DNA of 50,533 nt from a virus: positions 1 through 50,533 of the IMG/VR virus record IMGVR_UViG_3300007539_000030; one strand, given 5' to 3'. The position numbers were made by a program, and so were the translations under genes. The first letter of the stretch is position 1; every line of letters begins with the position of its first letter. The notes beneath the pieces are model-generated. The model had not been told where the DNA came from, searched no databases, and saw nothing but the letters and a program-made list of their open reading frames with translations. Shown here piece after piece: positions 18,901-46,913 of this stretch.

Positions 18901-21900
18901 CTTGATGTGTAGGATCAAGATACAGATCATATCCATACCATTCACCACCAGAAGCACGATCGTTATAGTCGTCAAGAATACGCTTACAGTATTCACTGAC
19001 TCTTGTTACGAACCACAGCAGATGTTGCTTGGTTACATCGGGGAATGCGATGAAGTTACCTTCACCATCAAACCATGTGTTAACGATTCTCAGGACACCA
19101 TTATTGCCACCAGTGTTGAGGTCATAAAGCAGACCCGTAATTAGAGTGTCACCGAAGGATTCCTCAGCAGTGGTTGTGGGATATGCTGTTTGTACCTCAG
19201 AGAATGCCTTAGCAGAAACAGCGTGCTTGTTGAAGAGGATTCTTCTTGCAGCAGACTTATCAGAGTTGCTACCACCACCGAGACTGCTGGTCATTAGATC
19301 AAACAGAGCCTCAGCAGCACTAGTTACATTCTCACATGTGTAGAACTGATACTCAGTGTTGCTGTTATAACCTGCGTCACGAGTGATTGTAGTCAGATAA
19401 CTAGGAGCAGGAGAGGGAGATGCAGCAGTTGTGATGGTCTGAATGATAACATCAAACAGGTTCTCGATAGTTGCTGCTTGTGATGCACATGCTTGGTTCC
19501 AGTCGCTGCCAGCGTCATAGGTGATAGAAGTATCACGCAGAACCATCTCAGGCGAATACTTGACAGGCCAGATGTTAGGCAGCGTCTTGGAGATTGTACC
19601 ATCAGTGATGCTAGCAGGCGTGGTGATTGTATCAGTCACAATCGACATCAAAGATGTCATAGCAGCTGCTACATCAGCACAAGGAGTTACAGTGTCAGTA
19701 TCAGCAGTTACGACATACCCACCCTGGTTATAGGGGAAGAAGTCGAGATCAGCAAAATACTTCTGAGTGTAACCATGACCAGCAGTGATAGTGATCGCTT
19801 GATCTCTCATCGCGGTGATGGCAAGGTCTCTTGCTTTCTCGAAGATCCAGATAGACTCAGCACTTTGAGAAGTGATGTGAGCGAGGTTACCACCACTGAC
19901 ATAGAACTCAGCAGCACGGAACATCTTGTTGTTACCACCGAAGCGGAGGTTCCAGACCAGAGCGTGCAGAACATCAGTTACGTCATGTACGCAGTTGATG
20001 TTACCGCCAGGAATGGTCAGACCTGGGAATTGTGCCAGACCCTGTGCGACTGCTTCCTCAGCAATCAGTCTGATGTTTCTCTCGATGATATGAGATGCAT
20101 CAATATATCTGTCATCGGCACCGTTCTGCTCATAGGTTTCAACATCAACAGAGTCGAGAGAAGAGGTTCCAACGCCACCAGGAGAAACAGTACCGCCGAT
20201 ACCACCGTCTGCCTGATAGATATACAGGTTGTCGCGTCCGAAACCATTACGCATGGTCAGGATGCAGATCTCAGCAGCGATCTTGTACACATCGATAGAC
20301 GCTTCAACTTCTGACTCAATGTGTGAAATGCTGGAATCCTCAGGGTTCAGATAGAGGAGTGCAGCATCATAAACAGCAGAGTTTCCGCCGTATCTCAGGT
20401 CGTGGATGATTGCTTCGATAACACCCATCACGTCGTCGATGCAGTTCTGAGCGCCACCAGGAACCACGAAGTCGAGATACTTCGACAAGTCGTTCATAGT
20501 GTAAACTGCCTCGCGAGCAATTACGTGCTTGTTAGCATCGAGCAGATTAGCAGCGTCGATATTTCTGTTAGAAGAAGGATCATTGTAGTTGTAACCCTTG
20601 GTGTCAACAGTAATTGTGTTATCTCTGTATGCTGTACGAGTTGTAAATCTCGCCACATAGTAGTCATCCTGAACATCAGTAGGAACACCGAATTCAGATG
20701 CAGTAGTACCAAAGGTCAGCAGAGTGTTGTTGACAGCGTGCAGAACCAGTTTCTTGACGTAGTTGAAAGCGTCAAGCACTGCACCGATTTCATTCTCAAC
20801 GTAGATGATATTGTTATTATTATCAAGATACAAATCAATAACATACTGAGTGGCAGAGTTACCACCAGTGATCAAATCAGTAATAACAGCGGGCAAAATA
20901 TATTGCTTGATATCACGCTCACACTTAGAATCACCACCAGGAATTACGAGGAAGTCATACTGGGTAAGATCACCAGTAACTTCGTTTTGTATTTCTGCCG
21001 AATAGTAATCATTCAGGTAACCAACAGTCTCTTCTGCGATGTAATCGCGGTTTTTCCAGATGAGGTCACCAGCGTCACGGAATCTGTTACCTGTGGGACC
21101 AAGGATGTCAGCGATAGTGTCAGCGAGGAGAACAATCTCATCTTGAATTGCCTGAGAAGCAGGTGCTGTGAAGTTGTTTGGAATACGAAGGATGTCAGTG
21201 TACTTAGTGCCATTGTAGGTTTCCAGATCAGCACTGGTGGTAGTGATTACATAGTTGATTACATCTGCCACTTCGGTCCAAGTGAAGATGGATTGCAGCA
21301 GCTCGTTACCAACGTATGCTAGATCACCAGTCTTGGTCAGATAACCTCTACCAGCGATAACACTGTTGTAGTTGCCACCATAACGAATGTCTTCGATGAT
21401 TGCTTTGAGGATATACTCCTTAGTATCACGCAGACAGAAGTTTGTACCTTGCTGGACACCAGTACCATCAGCGGTGTCACCAGGCATCACAAAGTCAGGA
21501 TACTTCTCTTTCATCAGACCAACAGCGGTCTCAGCGATCCAATCAAGGTTCAGTTCGATTGTATCAGCACACTTACGATGCTCATCGCGGGAAAGGTTGA
21601 TGTCCTCAACGATGATGGTCTTCTCGTCATAGTCGATCTTCTTGGCAGTCGCAGAAGAGTTAGTCTGACCAGTGTAGGTTGCAATCCTATCCTGAGTGCT
21701 CATGATGATCGGCAATTCAAAACTGAGACCGAAACTTACATCATTGAGTCCTGTGCCAGTAGGATATGTGAATCCAGGTGTAAAGGCGGCGCTGTAATCA
21801 GAGACATTCTTCTTGAAGATAACGTTATCAATATGTCCAACGAAGTTGTCAGTACCTGCCTCGTTAGCACCAATCTTGAACGCACGTTCCAGATATGCAT

Positions 21901-36216: not shown

Positions 36217-38436
36217 TTAGAAACAGGAGTCGAGTTCTGGATACGTGAAGTTTCCAGCGGGGTAGCTGATTGTATTTATGTTGCTGCCACCATAGTTCCA
36301 TCCGTTGAAATTAAAGGGATCGAAGGCGTTTGCAGCACCAGGATTCACGTTGGTATCGCGTGGGAAAACACGAGGATTGAATAGTGTAGGATCCACACCA
36401 GCAGGGATAATAATCGACCCACCAGAAGGAAGAACTACAACAGGAATTCTAGTTGTACCATCGGGAGTGTCAGCCACATCAAGAGGACCAACACAAACAA
36501 TACCTTTGTTATAATCAACTGTACCAACAGCATCATTCAGAACAACTTCTTTTTCGTTTCTATTAGTAACCATCATCATGTTACCCAGACCGTCATCACG
36601 GAGATTGACAGGAACCAGTGTTGCTGTGCTCTGTGTTGCTGTGTTAACGAGGACGTTTTCGAGTGCAGTGTTACCACCAGCGATTACATCAGTGTTATTG
36701 ACGGTTGTTCCTTCCAGAAGAGAACCAGCAGCCTCACCAGCAGCGATCAGATCAGCAACTTCCTCGGTATAACCCGTAGCATAGAAGGTTCCAGACTTAA
36801 CAGAGGAGAACTTGGGTTTACAAGCGGAATTGCCACCATCTCCGCCATTACCACCATTTCCGCCGTCTCCACCATCTCCATCGCCACCATCTCCATCGCC
36901 ACCGCCACCACCACCAGTGCCGTCTGTGCCACCAAAGTCATTCGGGTCCACAATCGGGTTGGAGAAGTCCAGACATTGAGAGAACTGGTTACCAAAAGTG
37001 AATTTATCCAGATTCTGACCAATAGTCATTTGAGTAGTCGTACCGCTGATTGCATTGTCAGCGGAATCGACCATAGCATTAAATTTGGAAGGTTCTAAGC
37101 GACCACCAAAGCGATTATCACGATTCTGAGCATTGAACTGGTCAACAGACTTCAAGATAGCAGAAGCAAGTTCGTTAGAAGAACGATTTGTCTGGTTTCC
37201 GTTGAAGTTAGGGTATACTGTTGGAGAAATATAGAAAATAGTTGGGTCAACGATCACAGGCTGAATCGATGCCATCGAATAGTCAAGAAGTTGGTTCTTG
37301 ATTTTCTGTTTTGTAGTGGTATTGAGATTCACACCACTCTTGGTACGAATAGCAACGTATACTTTACCGTATTCTGGGGGAGATAACTTCTCACCACCAT
37401 ATGCAGTCACTGACGCAGCAGAAGGATACAGTTGTGAGACCAGATATGCATAGTCAGTCTCAGTAACTGCTCTATTTTGAACAGAGAACCCTTTGGGTGC
37501 CCTATACTTGATGCTCAGAGCACTTTCTCTTTCGGCACCATCGGCAGAAGTCTCAATAGTCTCCATTGTGATTGCCTGAGGCAGCACAGGACGACCAGTA
37601 GAGTCGATTGCACGACCGATGAACCCAAACTTCTTCGCACCGTTCGCTTCGGAACCATCGGTGTCGAGATATTCAACAGTGATGAACTCATTGTCGATGT
37701 GTTTACGTCCAAGTACGCCATCACCGAACGTAATCTTGAATCTAAGGTCCTCAGTCTCTTCTAAGAAGTAAACCCTAGACGTTGGAGTCAGTGCTGTGAC
37801 GTTATCAGAGAGAGAATATTCATCAACTTCAACAGATTGCTCGTTAGGACGAACCAAAACCTTCATTCTGGCAGTATCCACGTTCTCAGACGGGATCACA
37901 TACTCAGGTTTCTTCGTATCATCAACAGTAAAACTATAATTAAGAAGGTTACCTTGATAGATCAGTAATTTGTTGAATTTAGCCTTGCCAGTTGACTGAT
38001 CTACTGCCTCTTCTACGTCATCAAGTGTGGCAAAGACGTATGACTCTCCATCAACAGTCGCTACAAAGACATCACCCTTCTTAATTGTGATGGAAGTGGG
38101 GTAAGACTGGTCACCAGGCAGCAGAGTTGCCTGCATAAACATCGTGATACATGCTCTCGATGCCTTTTTAGACCTAGGGGTATAACCAATCTGCTTTGCA
38201 ATCCTTACAATGTTGTCTCTAACAGTTGCAGATTCCAAAAAGGACTCGTTCATCGACATGTTTGCCGTGAACGAAGCATAGTAAGTATTGTATGCTAAAA
38301 TATCGATCAAATACGAGGCAGCAGATCCCTCAAAATCATAATCTGTGAACTCTTTTCTGGTTCTTAGATAAGATCTGATTGACTCTTTGATTTCAAAGAA
38401 GTCTAGGGATGTTAGTTCTGATGGAAGTGCTGCCAT
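36217..38436 (-). CDS. 6: Baseplate wedge subunit gp6
   Basis: The N-terminal half is a clear gp6 / baseplate J-like wedge protein: LDFFEIKESIRSYLRTRKEF, DYDFEGSAASYLIDILAYNT, then NESFLESATVRDNIVRIAKQ and IGYTPRSKKAS. gp6 dimers form the inner ring that joins the six wedges. At 739 aa it is longer than T4 gp6 (660 aa). The added part includes a Gly/Asp/Asn tract at residues about 507-535 and a C-terminal domain rich in Gly, Asn and Pro ending PAGNFTYPELDSCF. It starts one base from the gp25 stop and ends 5 bases before the giant gp7-like gene, so gp25, gp6 and gp7 are translated from one message. Confidence 0.95.
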   Translation of the reverse strand: MAALPSELTSLDFFEIKESIRSYLRTRKEFTDYDFEGSAASYLIDILAYNTYYASFTANMSMNESFLESATVRDNIVRIAKQIGYTPRSKKASRACITMFMQATLLPGDQSYPTSITIKKGDVFVATVDGESYVFATLDDVEEAVDQSTGKAKFNKLLIYQGNLLNYSFTVDDTKKPEYVIPSENVDTARMKVLVRPNEQSVEVDEYSLSDNVTALTPTSRVYFLEETEDLRFKITFGDGVLGRKHIDNEFITVEYLDTDGSEANGAKKFGFIGRAIDSTGRPVLPQAITMETIETSADGAERESALSIKYRAPKGFSVQNRAVTETDYAYLVSQLYPSAASVTAYGGEKLSPPEYGKVYVAIRTKSGVNLNTTTKQKIKNQLLDYSMASIQPVIVDPTIFYISPTVYPNFNGNQTNRSSNELASAILKSVDQFNAQNRDNRFGGRLEPSKFNAMVDSADNAISGTTTQMTIGQNLDKFTFGNQFSQCLDFSNPIVDPNDFGGTDGTGGGGGGDGDGGDGDGGDGGNGGNGGDGGNSACKPKFSSVKSGTFYATGYTEEVADLIAAGEAAGSLLEGTTVNNTDVIAGGNTALENVLVNTATQSTATLVPVNLRDDGLGNMMMVTNRNEKEVVLNDAVGTVDYNKGIVCVGPLDVADTPDGTTRIPVVVLPSGGSIIIPAGVDPTLFNPRVFPRDTNVNPGAANAFDPFNFNGWNYGGSNINTISYPAGNFTYPELDSCF
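36273..36280 (-). promoter_or_regulatory. Possible internal late promoter CATAAATA before the giant gene
   Basis: The minus strand reads CATAAATA inside the last codons of gp6, 61 bases upstream of the giant gene's ATG. It would allow extra late transcription of the 20-kb gene. Being inside a coding region, it may be chance. Confidence 0.5.
36831..36916 (-). repeat. Gly-Asp/Gly-Asn codon repeat in gp6
   Basis: About 86 bases of near-repeats of ggagatggtgg / ggtggcaatgg units on the minus strand encode roughly 29 residues that are almost only Gly, Asp and Asn, following a poly-Gly run. Tandem DNA repeats of this kind can change length by slippage. The protein segment resembles a flexible or calcium-binding linker. 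Confidence 0.85.
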
Positions 38437-44476: not shown

Positions 44477-44644
44477 TCAAGCGTCTTCGGATTTTTTCAA
44501 AATAATACTACCATCAATATCCTCACTCCATTCTAACACAGTACCCTCAAACCACCCAAGTTCATCCAATACCTCATCAGGCAATGTAATGAAGTAATTA
44601 TCCTCTTCGTCTACTTCTACTGGTAGTGTGTATCTTCTTGACAT
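44477..44644 (-). CDS. AbrB/MazE-like small protein, 55 aa
   Basis: This short frame reads MSRRYTLPVEVDEEDNYFIT, then LPDEVLDELGWFEGTVLEW and a strand ending in SIILKK. The pattern (strand, then LP-x-E-[VL]-L-x-x-LG-[WL]-x-x-G-[DT], then strand) is that of swapped-hairpin AbrB/SpoVT/MazE DNA-binding domains. Such proteins act as transcription factors or antitoxins; here no toxin gene lies next to it. It overlaps the end of the NlpC/P60 gene by 28 bases. The protein is acidic overall, and the basic N-terminus (SRR) is short, so DNA binding is uncertain. Confidence 0.75.
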   Translation of the reverse strand: MSRRYTLPVEVDEEDNYFITLPDEVLDELGWFEGTVLEWSEDIDGSIILKKSEDA

Positions 44645-45204
44645 ACCTTACATCCATGACTATTTTTTATATAGGGTTTCAAGAGTTTACGCTCCTTTAA
44701 CCTCAGAACTAATTCGGTATTGTCCGCATACCATTGCTGCCGAGTGAGATCTGTAACCTGAGAAGTATTGTACGCTGGGTGATGTAACATAAACCCATCC
44801 CCAAGGTATATACCGCAGTGGTTGGCAGTTCTATCCCCCTTCGCAGAATAACCGCCTTCTAGGCGATCCAGGTACAGTCTCATGATCATTACGTCCCCTA
44901 CCTCAAACTCATTGAGTGGTGTGGGATCATATACACTTCCTTGGTAGACTGTAATGCCTCCCCCCTGCCTCTTCTGCTCCTCTTCGATGTACTCTGATTT
45001 GAACAGATACTTTCTTTGTGCTGGGTAGTCAAACAGTTGACATCCATAGAATTCATCATAAAACTCTCGGACGATTTGGTAACATCCTCCCAGTCCATGG
45101 TCGCGATGCGAATGAGGCCATGGGCGACCTACCCAGTCCTTCCAGACTTCTGAAACCTCGTAGTTGTATGCCCTGCGAGTATCTTTAAGGTCTCGATAAA
45201 ACAT
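44617..45204 (-). CDS. NlpC/P60 (C40) family cell-wall peptidase, 195 aa
   Basis: The fold signature is present. The nucleophile Cys lies in HGLGGCYQIVREFYDEF (Cys41) after GRPW. The catalytic His segment is ANHCGIYLGDGFMLHHPAYN near residues 128-147, with the His before C-G-I-Y-L-G and a second polar His after it. The spacing of about 90 residues between Cys and His is normal for C40 peptidases, which cleave D-Glu-diaminopimelate bonds in peptidoglycan stems. Phages use such domains at the tail tip (lambda K type) to pierce the wall. Here it precedes the baseplate/spike genes, so it probably provides the cell-wall-degrading activity of the tail. A soluble lysis role is the alternative. The start at 45204 is the only ATG that keeps the Cys motif at a normal distance. 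Confidence 0.85.
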   Translation of the reverse strand: MFYRDLKDTRRAYNYEVSEVWKDWVGRPWPHSHRDHGLGGCYQIVREFYDEFYGCQLFDYPAQRKYLFKSEYIEEEQKRQGGGITVYQGSVYDPTPLNEFEVGDVMIMRLYLDRLEGGYSAKGDRTANHCGIYLGDGFMLHHPAYNTSQVTDLTRQQWYADNTELVLRLKERKLLKPYIKNSHGCKVCQEDTHYQ

Positions 45205-45739: not shown

Positions 45740-45849
45740 GACACATCACCTAGAAACTCTTCTGAGATAATCTCATAGTTAATGTCATCGTACTCTGAAT
45801 CTTCTTCTAGGATGTCATCAATCCAATCAGTAGTTAGTTCTTCATTCAT
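45736..45849 (-). CDS. Very small acidic protein, 37 aa, unknown
   Basis: The frame reads MNEELTTDWIDDILEEDSEY, then DDINYEIISEEFLGDVS. About 15 of its 37 residues are Asp or Glu. It is joined to the genes on each side by ATGA overlaps, which supports translation. A protein this acidic could mimic DNA or bind a basic partner, but nothing proves that. Its upstream neighbour is strongly basic (62 aa, many Lys/Arg), and an acidic/basic pair translated together may form a complex. Confidence 0.72.
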   Translation of the reverse strand: MNEELTTDWIDDILEEDSEYDDINYEIISEEFLGDVS

Positions 45850-46034
45850 GATTGATTGTCCCAGTTAGTGTCATCAATACGTTGGTTCTTTCGTTGATAC
45901 TTACCTGTGGAAAAGTCTGTGGAATTGTCATCATAATAGGTGTCACGTTTAGACCCCGAATACTGTCTCTTTTCTCGGATAGATTTGGGGCGTCTGCTGT
46001 TATGCAGGTCATTGCGTTTGTATGTGCGACCCAT
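45846..46034 (-). CDS. Small basic protein, 62 aa, unknown
   Basis: The sequence is dominated by Lys, Arg, Asn, Asp and Ser (MGRTYKRNDLHNSRRPKSIR, then EKRQYSGSKRDTYYDDNSTD) with almost no hydrophobic residues, so it is probably disordered and may bind nucleic acid. It is the first gene of the four-gene coupled cluster and follows a TTGACA-type promoter by about 40 bases. One TTTTCCACA element (45906-45914) lies inside its coding region. Confidence 0.78.
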   Translation of the reverse strand: MGRTYKRNDLHNSRRPKSIREKRQYSGSKRDTYYDDNSTDFSTGKYQRKNQRIDDTNWDNQS

Positions 46035-46073
46035 GGGAATGTTTCAGTGAATGTGTCTGTGAGGGACTTTGGT

Positions 46074-46102
46074 AGTATGTATCATTTTGGCAGTAATGTC
46101 AA
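46074..46102 (-). promoter_or_regulatory. Host sigma-70-type promoter TTGACA-N17-CATACT
   Basis: On the minus strand an exact -35 hexamer TTGACA (46097-46102) is followed after 17 bases by CATACT (46074-46079), four of six matches to TATAAT. The predicted start lies about 30 bases before the ATG at 46034. It would give early, host-polymerase transcription of the four coupled small genes. Confidence 0.75.
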
Positions 46103-46239
46103 GGGGTCTGTGAGTGTTTGTGAATCGTCTCCTATGTGTTGACAGAGAGGGCGTGATAGGTTACACTCCAAGGCAACAACAAATGAGAGGATTAATGAAA
46201 CAAATAGAACACTAATGTATGTTTATTTGTATATTTAAT

Positions 46240-46283
46240 TTATCCACAGGAATGTGGAAAACTCTCCGCAATGTTGTGGAAAA
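46240..46283. promoter_or_regulatory. Cluster of three DnaA-box-like elements
   Basis: The plus strand has TTATCCACA at 46240-46248, the exact E. coli DnaA box. TGTGGAAAA occurs at 46253-46261 and 46275-46283, that is TTTTCCACA on the other strand, the form I recall for cyanobacterial origins. The first two form an inverted repeat. An AT-rich stretch lies alongside. A fourth TGTGGAAAA is at 45906-45914. Origin, DnaA titration or regulation by DnaA are all possible. Confidence 0.6.
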
Positions 46284-46289
46284 GTGTAT

Positions 46290-46913
46290 CTATGTAGGGA
46301 TGACATTGAATGTTAGAGTGATGCGATTGTCTGTGGGGTTTGATTCATAACCATGGGTAAGATTAGATGGATAGATGATACAATCTCCATTAGAGTAAGG
46401 TATAGTTGCTTCTTGAAGATTGAATGCAGTCATTTGTTCAAACGGTAGCATCATGACAGGGAACATTTGGGACATAACATTACGTTTGAATTTCATAAAC
46501 GAATGTTGTTCTGGTTCGTAGTTAATGAAGAGAGTGCCACTGAATAAACAATTAGAGTGTTCATGTGGTGCATAGATAGCGCCTTGATGTGCGACTTCTA
46601 CATATGCATCAGAGATAGCAAAGTTTGATGCATAGGAGAGACCTGATTCATTTGCTTTTCTTGCTGCTGTGAGTAGTTCTGCTTTAAGATCTGGGAGGTC
46701 TTCAAGTATTTTATTTGTTGGTCCTACTTGTTGAACATTGTGGCAAATTGTGTTTCTGTCATGATCAACGAAATCTTCATTCTTCATCCAGTTTAAGATA
46801 GGCACGATGAAATCAGTCATATCGTACTTAGTAACTGGTGTCATGAAGAGACCATAAGTTTCGTATTGAACTACGTCATCAAGATTAGGAGATAGTGAGA
46901 TTTCTTCTGCCAT
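46290..46913 (-). CDS. 2-oxoglutarate/Fe(II)-dependent oxygenase-like protein, 207 aa
   Basis: The C-terminal half matches the phage-rich 2OG-FeII_Oxy_5 type (PF13759). It has GAIYAPHEHSNCLFSGTLFI with His117 and His119, then GDCIIYPSNLTHGYESN with His187, and Arg197 in DNRITLTFNVIP for the 2-oxoglutarate carboxylate. Family members use Fe(II), O2 and 2-oxoglutarate to hydroxylate a substrate; the phage substrate is unknown. The N-terminal 100 residues form the usual helical lead-in. A second gene with the same C-terminal pattern starts at the right window edge. It begins 4 bases after the stop of the 62-aa gene before it, so it belongs to the operon that starts near 47106 or further upstream. 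Confidence 0.85.
   Translation of the reverse strand: MAEEISLSPNLDDVVQYETYGLFMTPVTKYDMTDFIVPILNWMKNEDFVDHDRNTICHNVQQVGPTNKILEDLPDLKAELLTAARKANESGLSYASNFAISDAYVEVAHQGAIYAPHEHSNCLFSGTLFINYEPEQHSFMKFKRNVMSQMFPVMMLPFEQMTAFNLQEATIPYSNGDCIIYPSNLTHGYESNPTDNRITLTFNVIPT

Follow-up and report, generated by a model that had tools for sequence, protein, structure and literature searches.

A conserved module of host-type DnaA boxes, an AT-rich stretch and an early promoter: a candidate replication origin of T4-like cyanophages

What would a lytic T4-like phage do with binding sites for the replication initiator of its host? The question is raised by a short gap in a 50,533-nt stretch of viral DNA (IMG/VR record IMGVR_UViG_3300007539_000030, positions 1 to 50,533; hereafter, the window). 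The initial annotation had taken the DNA to be that of a T4-like phage, and the window is indeed a fragment of a Kyanoviridae phage, a T4-like marine cyanophage; among isolates it is closest to Synechococcus phage S-WAM1 (74.6% in the regions that align) and S-SZBM1, with P-RSM6 more distant. The same annotation had reported one TTATCCACA and two TTTTCCACA within 44 bases and had called them a DnaA-box cluster; all three are exact, and the 9-mers match the cyanobacterial box specifically. The first box of the group, TTTTCCACA at 46275-46283 (-), shows 100% identity in 10 of 10 aligned relatives. The second (46253-46261, -) lies in direct orientation 22 bp from the first and has a mean identity of 80%, while the third, TTATCCACA at 46240-46248 (+), is opposed to the second at 13 bp and, with a mean identity of 72%, is degenerate in several relatives. 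The 13-bp inter-box spacer adjoining the first box is only 53% identical across 11 aligned loci, versus 100% for that box. Across the window we counted four TTWTCCACA sites versus 1.21 expected, a number reached in 1 of 100 shuffles, and the chance that three of them fall within 44 bp of sequence somewhere in the window, calculated from the window-wide rate, is ~7e-7, in agreement with the earlier suspicion that so tight a group is unlikely to be accidental. A fourth copy had been listed as well. It is exact (TTTTCCACA, 45906-45914, -), but it sits outside the gap, in frame (F-S-T codons) within a 62-aa ORF. These codons are the same in most close relatives, and in S-SZBM1 (L263, 614 and 626) two copies of the site stand 12 bp apart, so either a coding constraint at the protein level (F-S-T) or an outlying box could be behind it.

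In alignments of the loci, the boxes turn out to form one end of a module of ~270 bp, which runs from the boxes through an AT-rich element and 30-60 variable bases to a divergent promoter and then to an early promoter directed at an operon of small ORFs. The arrangement of boxes, AT-rich stretch and opposed promoter recurs across genera. The AT-rich stretch, a candidate DNA unwinding element, had been noticed beside the boxes from the start; at 46203-46242 it is 85% AT, the highest content of any 40 bp in the window. Its core, TTAAAT..AAATWAAYATA, is conserved across genera, and in 7 of 10 other genomes the corresponding stretch falls within the top 1%. The putative divergent early promoter (TTGACA-N17-TACACT, 46139-46167, +) would first read across the AT-rich stretch, then enter the boxes and continue in the antisense direction along the neighbouring oxygenase gene. 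Across 11 loci its –35 element is 100%, its –10 element 97% and its spacer 67% identical; the form seen in the alignments is TTGACA-N17-TAAGAC, with TACACT as the –10 element in the window. The second putative early promoter (TTGACA-N17-CATACT, 46074-46102, -), of the general type TTGACA-N17-TATAAT, points toward the small-ORF operon and is less uniform (–35 97%, –10 73%, spacer 59% identity across the 11 loci). Both calls are consensus matches, and a simple rule of this kind failed on the divergent promoter in about one third of the modules. Among the relatives of the window, identity is 50-67% in the spacers and reaches 100% in the –35 element of the divergent promoter and in the first box; conserved motifs amid diverged spacers have the appearance of protein-binding sites.

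The gap that holds the boxes, the AT-rich stretch and the two divergent sigma70-like promoters measures 255 bp (46035-46289), is noncoding by the ORF list and was aligned in 11 related loci. It is preceded by a 2OG-Fe(II) oxygenase gene (46290-46913, -; PF13759, E 1e-8; phrog_81) and followed by the ORF of a 62-aa basic protein (45846-46034, -; phrog_1464/phrog_3226), the first gene after the module. We rejected the latter as a dedicated initiator: its relatives lie ~10 kb from the module in Syn9, S-ShM2, S-SSM5, P-SSM7 and P-SSM4, and the protein is therefore not module-specific. An annotated baseplate wedge subunit gene follows the cluster within ~2 kb in P-SSM7, S-ShM2, S-SSM5, S-RIM2, Syn9 and ACG-2014d, and in the window its position is occupied by a 1476-aa gene (phrog_22792). 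The description of the boxes as intergenic is right for the three in the 255-bp gap but mostly true only, since in several isolates the 3' ends of annotated small ORFs extend into the boxes. The frame of the window ORF at 46219-46350, for its part, is not preserved among relatives in the aligned loci. Elsewhere in the window, a MazE/AbrB-like 55-aa antitoxin-family ORF (44477-44644, -) overlaps an NlpC/P60 peptidase-like gene (44617-45204, -).

How widespread are such clusters? Two or more exact copies of TTTTCCACA within a 50-bp span occur in 12 of 19 named Kyanoviridae, where 0.13 genomes would be expected from their own box counts; taken with the window-wide estimate given above, this rules out chance clustering. 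No cluster by the same definition was found in the other seven sampled isolates. Both conservation and genome-wide abundance of the motif had been proposed as checks, and neither speaks against the boxes: close relatives among viral contigs retain them in place, and genomes contain 0-12 copies (1-12 in box-bearing records), which form tight clusters only in the small-ORF block, the same in all cyanomyoviruses that carry a cluster, and are single and scattered outside it. Next to the oxygenase gene, L015-L018 have no boxes; the whole contig of L017, the one examined, carries the cluster elsewhere. Synechococcus phages have clusters more often than Prochlorococcus phages (11 of 14 versus 1 of 5 isolates, P 0.038, uncorrected for relatedness). 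Box spacing is phased in our census, with direct pairs peaking at 21 and 12 bp and convergent pairs at 23 bp, so in number (two or more) and in their close, regular spacing the phage sites are as expected of a DnaA-box cluster of cyanobacteria. In three isolates a further gap of the small-ORF block contains an additional TTTTCCACA pair, ~0.25-0.9 kb from the first cluster and in two of the three just upstream of an ORF: P-SSM7 (46602-46631, box starts 46602/46623), S-ShM2 (53068-53092, 53068/53084) and ACG-2014d (37690-37709, 37690/37701).

An unbiased scan of 11 whole genomes, in which 9-mers were ranked by clustering, put TTTTCCACA first, tied with CGTTCATCC. The latter forms pairs with GGACGCAAGTAAG between the copies (S-WAM1 162190, S-ShM2 162521, P-SSM7 164601, S-SSM5 159416, P-SSM4 165104 and others); judging from its sequence context, it looks like the known glutamine-riboswitch (glnA / downstream-peptide) RNA of cyanophages, which would explain the sole other recurrent 9-mer cluster. 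In S-PM2 two tRNA genes are annotated exactly over the box cluster (record 19177-19333, L162), where ARAGORN finds none; these are probably mis-annotations. Four or more nearby copies of TTTTCCACA are present in 12 viral contigs (L021, L041, L042, L050, L053, L056, L088, L099, L104, L107, L115 and L129), several of which match the module weakly.

The module as a whole reaches further than its boxes. A profile built from the alignments gave one clear full match in each whole genome searched, except P-SSM2, with E values from 1e-5 to 1e-49, and matched 33 further contigs outside the training set; the match in the window (46321-46044, E 4e-49) is to a member of the training alignment. Modules without boxes were found in S-RSM4 (140111-140259, E 1e-24), P-RSM6, P-HM1, S-SSM7 and P-SSM4, and these have retained the AT-rich element and, in most cases, the divergent promoter as well. 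Thus at least five of the seven box-less phages retain the remaining module (for S-CRM01 the search covered boxes only), and the boxes therefore appear to be an addition to, or a loss from, a more general element.

Which protein could read the boxes? TTTTCCACA has been published as the DnaA box of cyanobacteria, of which domain IV of Cyanothece DnaA binds in vitro a pair spaced by 2 nt, a single box not clearly (PMC4674748; PMC3480399). The 9-mer also ranks first among motifs upstream of dnaN in 26 genomes of the hosts (Cyanobiaceae), in which the commonest 8-mers of this region are TTTTCCAC and TTTCCACA, each found in 22 of 26 loci; box sites with at most one mismatch reach 10.8 per kb there versus 0.15 nearby, a ~70-fold difference. 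Phage boxes have the exact consensus, whereas host oriC boxes are mostly one-off variants: no exact TTTTCCACA clusters were found in the oriC of WH7803, where the boxes are such variants. Arrays of TAGTAGTAG, likely a DnaA-trio element, occur in 18 of 26 Cyanobiaceae oriC regions (dnaN-upstream loci L265-L294) but in only 1 of 38 phage modules. A phage-encoded DnaA can be ruled out for the 20 phage records searched, as none has the DnaA box-binding domain (PF08299, DnaA_C), which is present in Synechococcus WH7803. For this reason host DnaA would be the only evident reader, if the boxes are read at all.

The layout can be set beside several known origins. T4 oriF and oriG are ~100 bp at minimum and combine a promoter with a downstream AT-rich unwinding element, where an R-loop primes replication (PMC3016281). 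At the level of sequence the cyanophage module is like them, being short and noncoding with a promoter into a very AT-rich stretch, and the cyanophage family shares the T4 replisome (PMC3016281, PMC2984593). Unlike them, it has an early sigma70-like promoter (TTGACA-N17-TACACT) and not a MotA middle promoter, motA being absent from cyanomyoviruses (PMC2984593), and it adds host DnaA boxes, once per genome and conserved across genera. A possible parallel is T4 oriE, which uses an early promoter and repeats (PMC3016281) and is primed by an RNA antisense to baseplate gene 5 (T4 record). The promoter layout of the module is similar, its predicted transcript would be antisense to the neighbouring gene, and in six isolates the baseplate wedge gene is at most ~2 kb away; 7 of 19 phages lack the repeats. 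The repeats of the oriE region, however, sit within the gene 5 coding sequence, and they can be dismissed as homologues of the boxes, as no DnaA-box-like 9-mers were found in T4 76-86 kb.

On the bacterial side, DnaA boxes together with an AT-rich element, the usual mark of oriC, are both found in the module. With the cyanobacterial oriC next to dnaN it has in common the same 9-mer, tight direct and convergent pairs and an AT-rich neighbour; it differs in that its boxes number 2-4 and are not spread out as an array, in lacking both the TAGTAGTAG trio and dnaN, and in the promoter directed into the AT-rich stretch. Plasmids and temperate phages with DnaA-dependent replicons also place host DnaA boxes beside an AT-rich segment, and they encode their own Rep/O initiator. 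The phages that carry our module, in contrast, are lytic, T4-like and equipped with a complete replisome of their own, and next to the module no initiator of the Rep/O type was identified.

In its order (promoter, AT-rich element, repeats, antisense direction, baseplate neighbourhood) the cyanophage module resembles the T4 origins, and it carries boxes for the host initiator in addition. We therefore interpret the module as a probable origin for early replication in T4-like cyanophages, of the T4 promoter-plus-unwinding-element type supplemented with host DnaA boxes, and put the chances of this at about even. Of the three proposals made in the initial annotation (auxiliary origin, DnaA-titrating decoy, sensor of host replication state for small early genes), an origin is the best supported because the boxes belong to a conserved layout that resembles the T4 origins; the two divergent promoters had gone unnoticed there, and the word 'auxiliary' is too weak for a module that is family-wide and single-copy. 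The sequence features, their layout and conservation, the match to the host box and the lack of a phage DnaA in the records searched are observed directly; from them we infer DnaA binding during infection, transcription, strand opening and initiation, which might proceed as follows. Just after infection, host RNA polymerase would start at the divergent sigma70 promoter (46139-46167, +), and the noncoding transcript would cross the AT-rich stretch. Host DnaA, cooperatively bound to the boxes on the far side, would help this stretch to open or to stay open; bound DnaA may also stall the polymerase, so that the end of a short RNA is left as primer. The T4-type replisome of the phage would then load, as at the promoter-plus-unwinding-element origins of T4.

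Since a box cluster is missing from seven of 19 phages, DnaA cannot be indispensable throughout the family. More tentatively, we propose that this lytic T4-like family has one fixed origin that uses host DnaA together with an early-promoter transcript, a hybrid of oriC and R-loop origins whose DnaA part was lost or is dispensable in some lineages. The family of such origins may extend outside marine Kyanoviridae. Phage use of DnaA boxes and T4 promoter-plus-unwinding-element origins are both of known kinds; what is new is that lytic T4-like phages combine the two in one module, present family-wide and as a single copy. GC skew showed no sign change at the module. The detrended skew has its maximum 3-13 kb from the module in 8 of 10 genomes, where there is also a gene-block boundary, and origins are not usually marked by a maximum.

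It should be asked whether the same features might serve some purpose other than replication. The boxes could belong to an early promoter region under DnaA control, in which DnaA, acting as a transcription factor or roadblock, tunes the divergent promoters, and with them the operon and an antisense RNA, to the replication state of the host with no replication start involved. Two divergent sigma70-like promoters beside the boxes, with the operon promoter conserved, speak for this, as does the second box pair in another gap of the small-ORF block in three isolates, just upstream of an ORF in two. Such control would, however, give no obvious role to the AT-rich element, although it is conserved and lies between the promoter and the boxes, there is no conserved ORF in the antisense direction, and the boxes lie ~75-110 bp past the divergent promoter and not over it; we consider this reading rather unlikely. 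Titration of DnaA seems less likely still. Hundreds of phage copies would pull DnaA off host oriC and halt host initiation, as bacterial titration sites do, and both the exact consensus of the phage boxes, compared with the mostly one-off boxes of host oriC, and the extra boxes near the module would suit such a decoy. But a decoy requires no fixed place, AT-rich stretch or promoter, boxes are few per genome, and the scattered single ones are without strong enrichment.

There is also a slim chance that the 9-mers are sites for some other protein, of the host or of the phage, and that their likeness to DnaA boxes is coincidental. Clustered phage boxes prefer A at –2 and G at –1, a preference that host boxes do not have and that leaves room for another binding protein; on the other hand, the exact 9-mer is the host oriC box (PMC4674748) and the G preferred after the box is common to phage and host. 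Least probable of all, and very much so, is that inverted TGTGGA repeats form an element acting as RNA, be it a hairpin, a terminator or a small RNA. Convergent pairs are palindromic and the window has a weak hairpin, CCACAGGAATGTGG, but many modules contain direct repeats only (S-CAM1, G004, G010, S-SM2), with which no hairpin is possible, a T-run at the right position is lacking, and no Rfam family was found at the gathering score, the two weak matches being to eukaryotic families.

In the literature that we found, the origins of marine T4-like cyanophages are unmapped. The open-access papers searched report neither DnaA boxes nor a mapped origin for these phages, and the sole statement found is the prediction of a single origin for Syn9, cited in a review that does not state its location (PMC2984593). 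The single conserved module is a concrete site to test in phages with cultured hosts, for which S-RSM4, P-SSM4, P-HM1, P-RSM6 and S-SSM7, which keep the module without the boxes, are natural comparisons. If host DnaA takes part, these phages would contrast with T4, whose replication-initiation review makes no mention of DnaA. The cell cycle of marine Synechococcus and Prochlorococcus follows light, and participation of host DnaA would tie the first round of phage replication to the cell cycle of the host.
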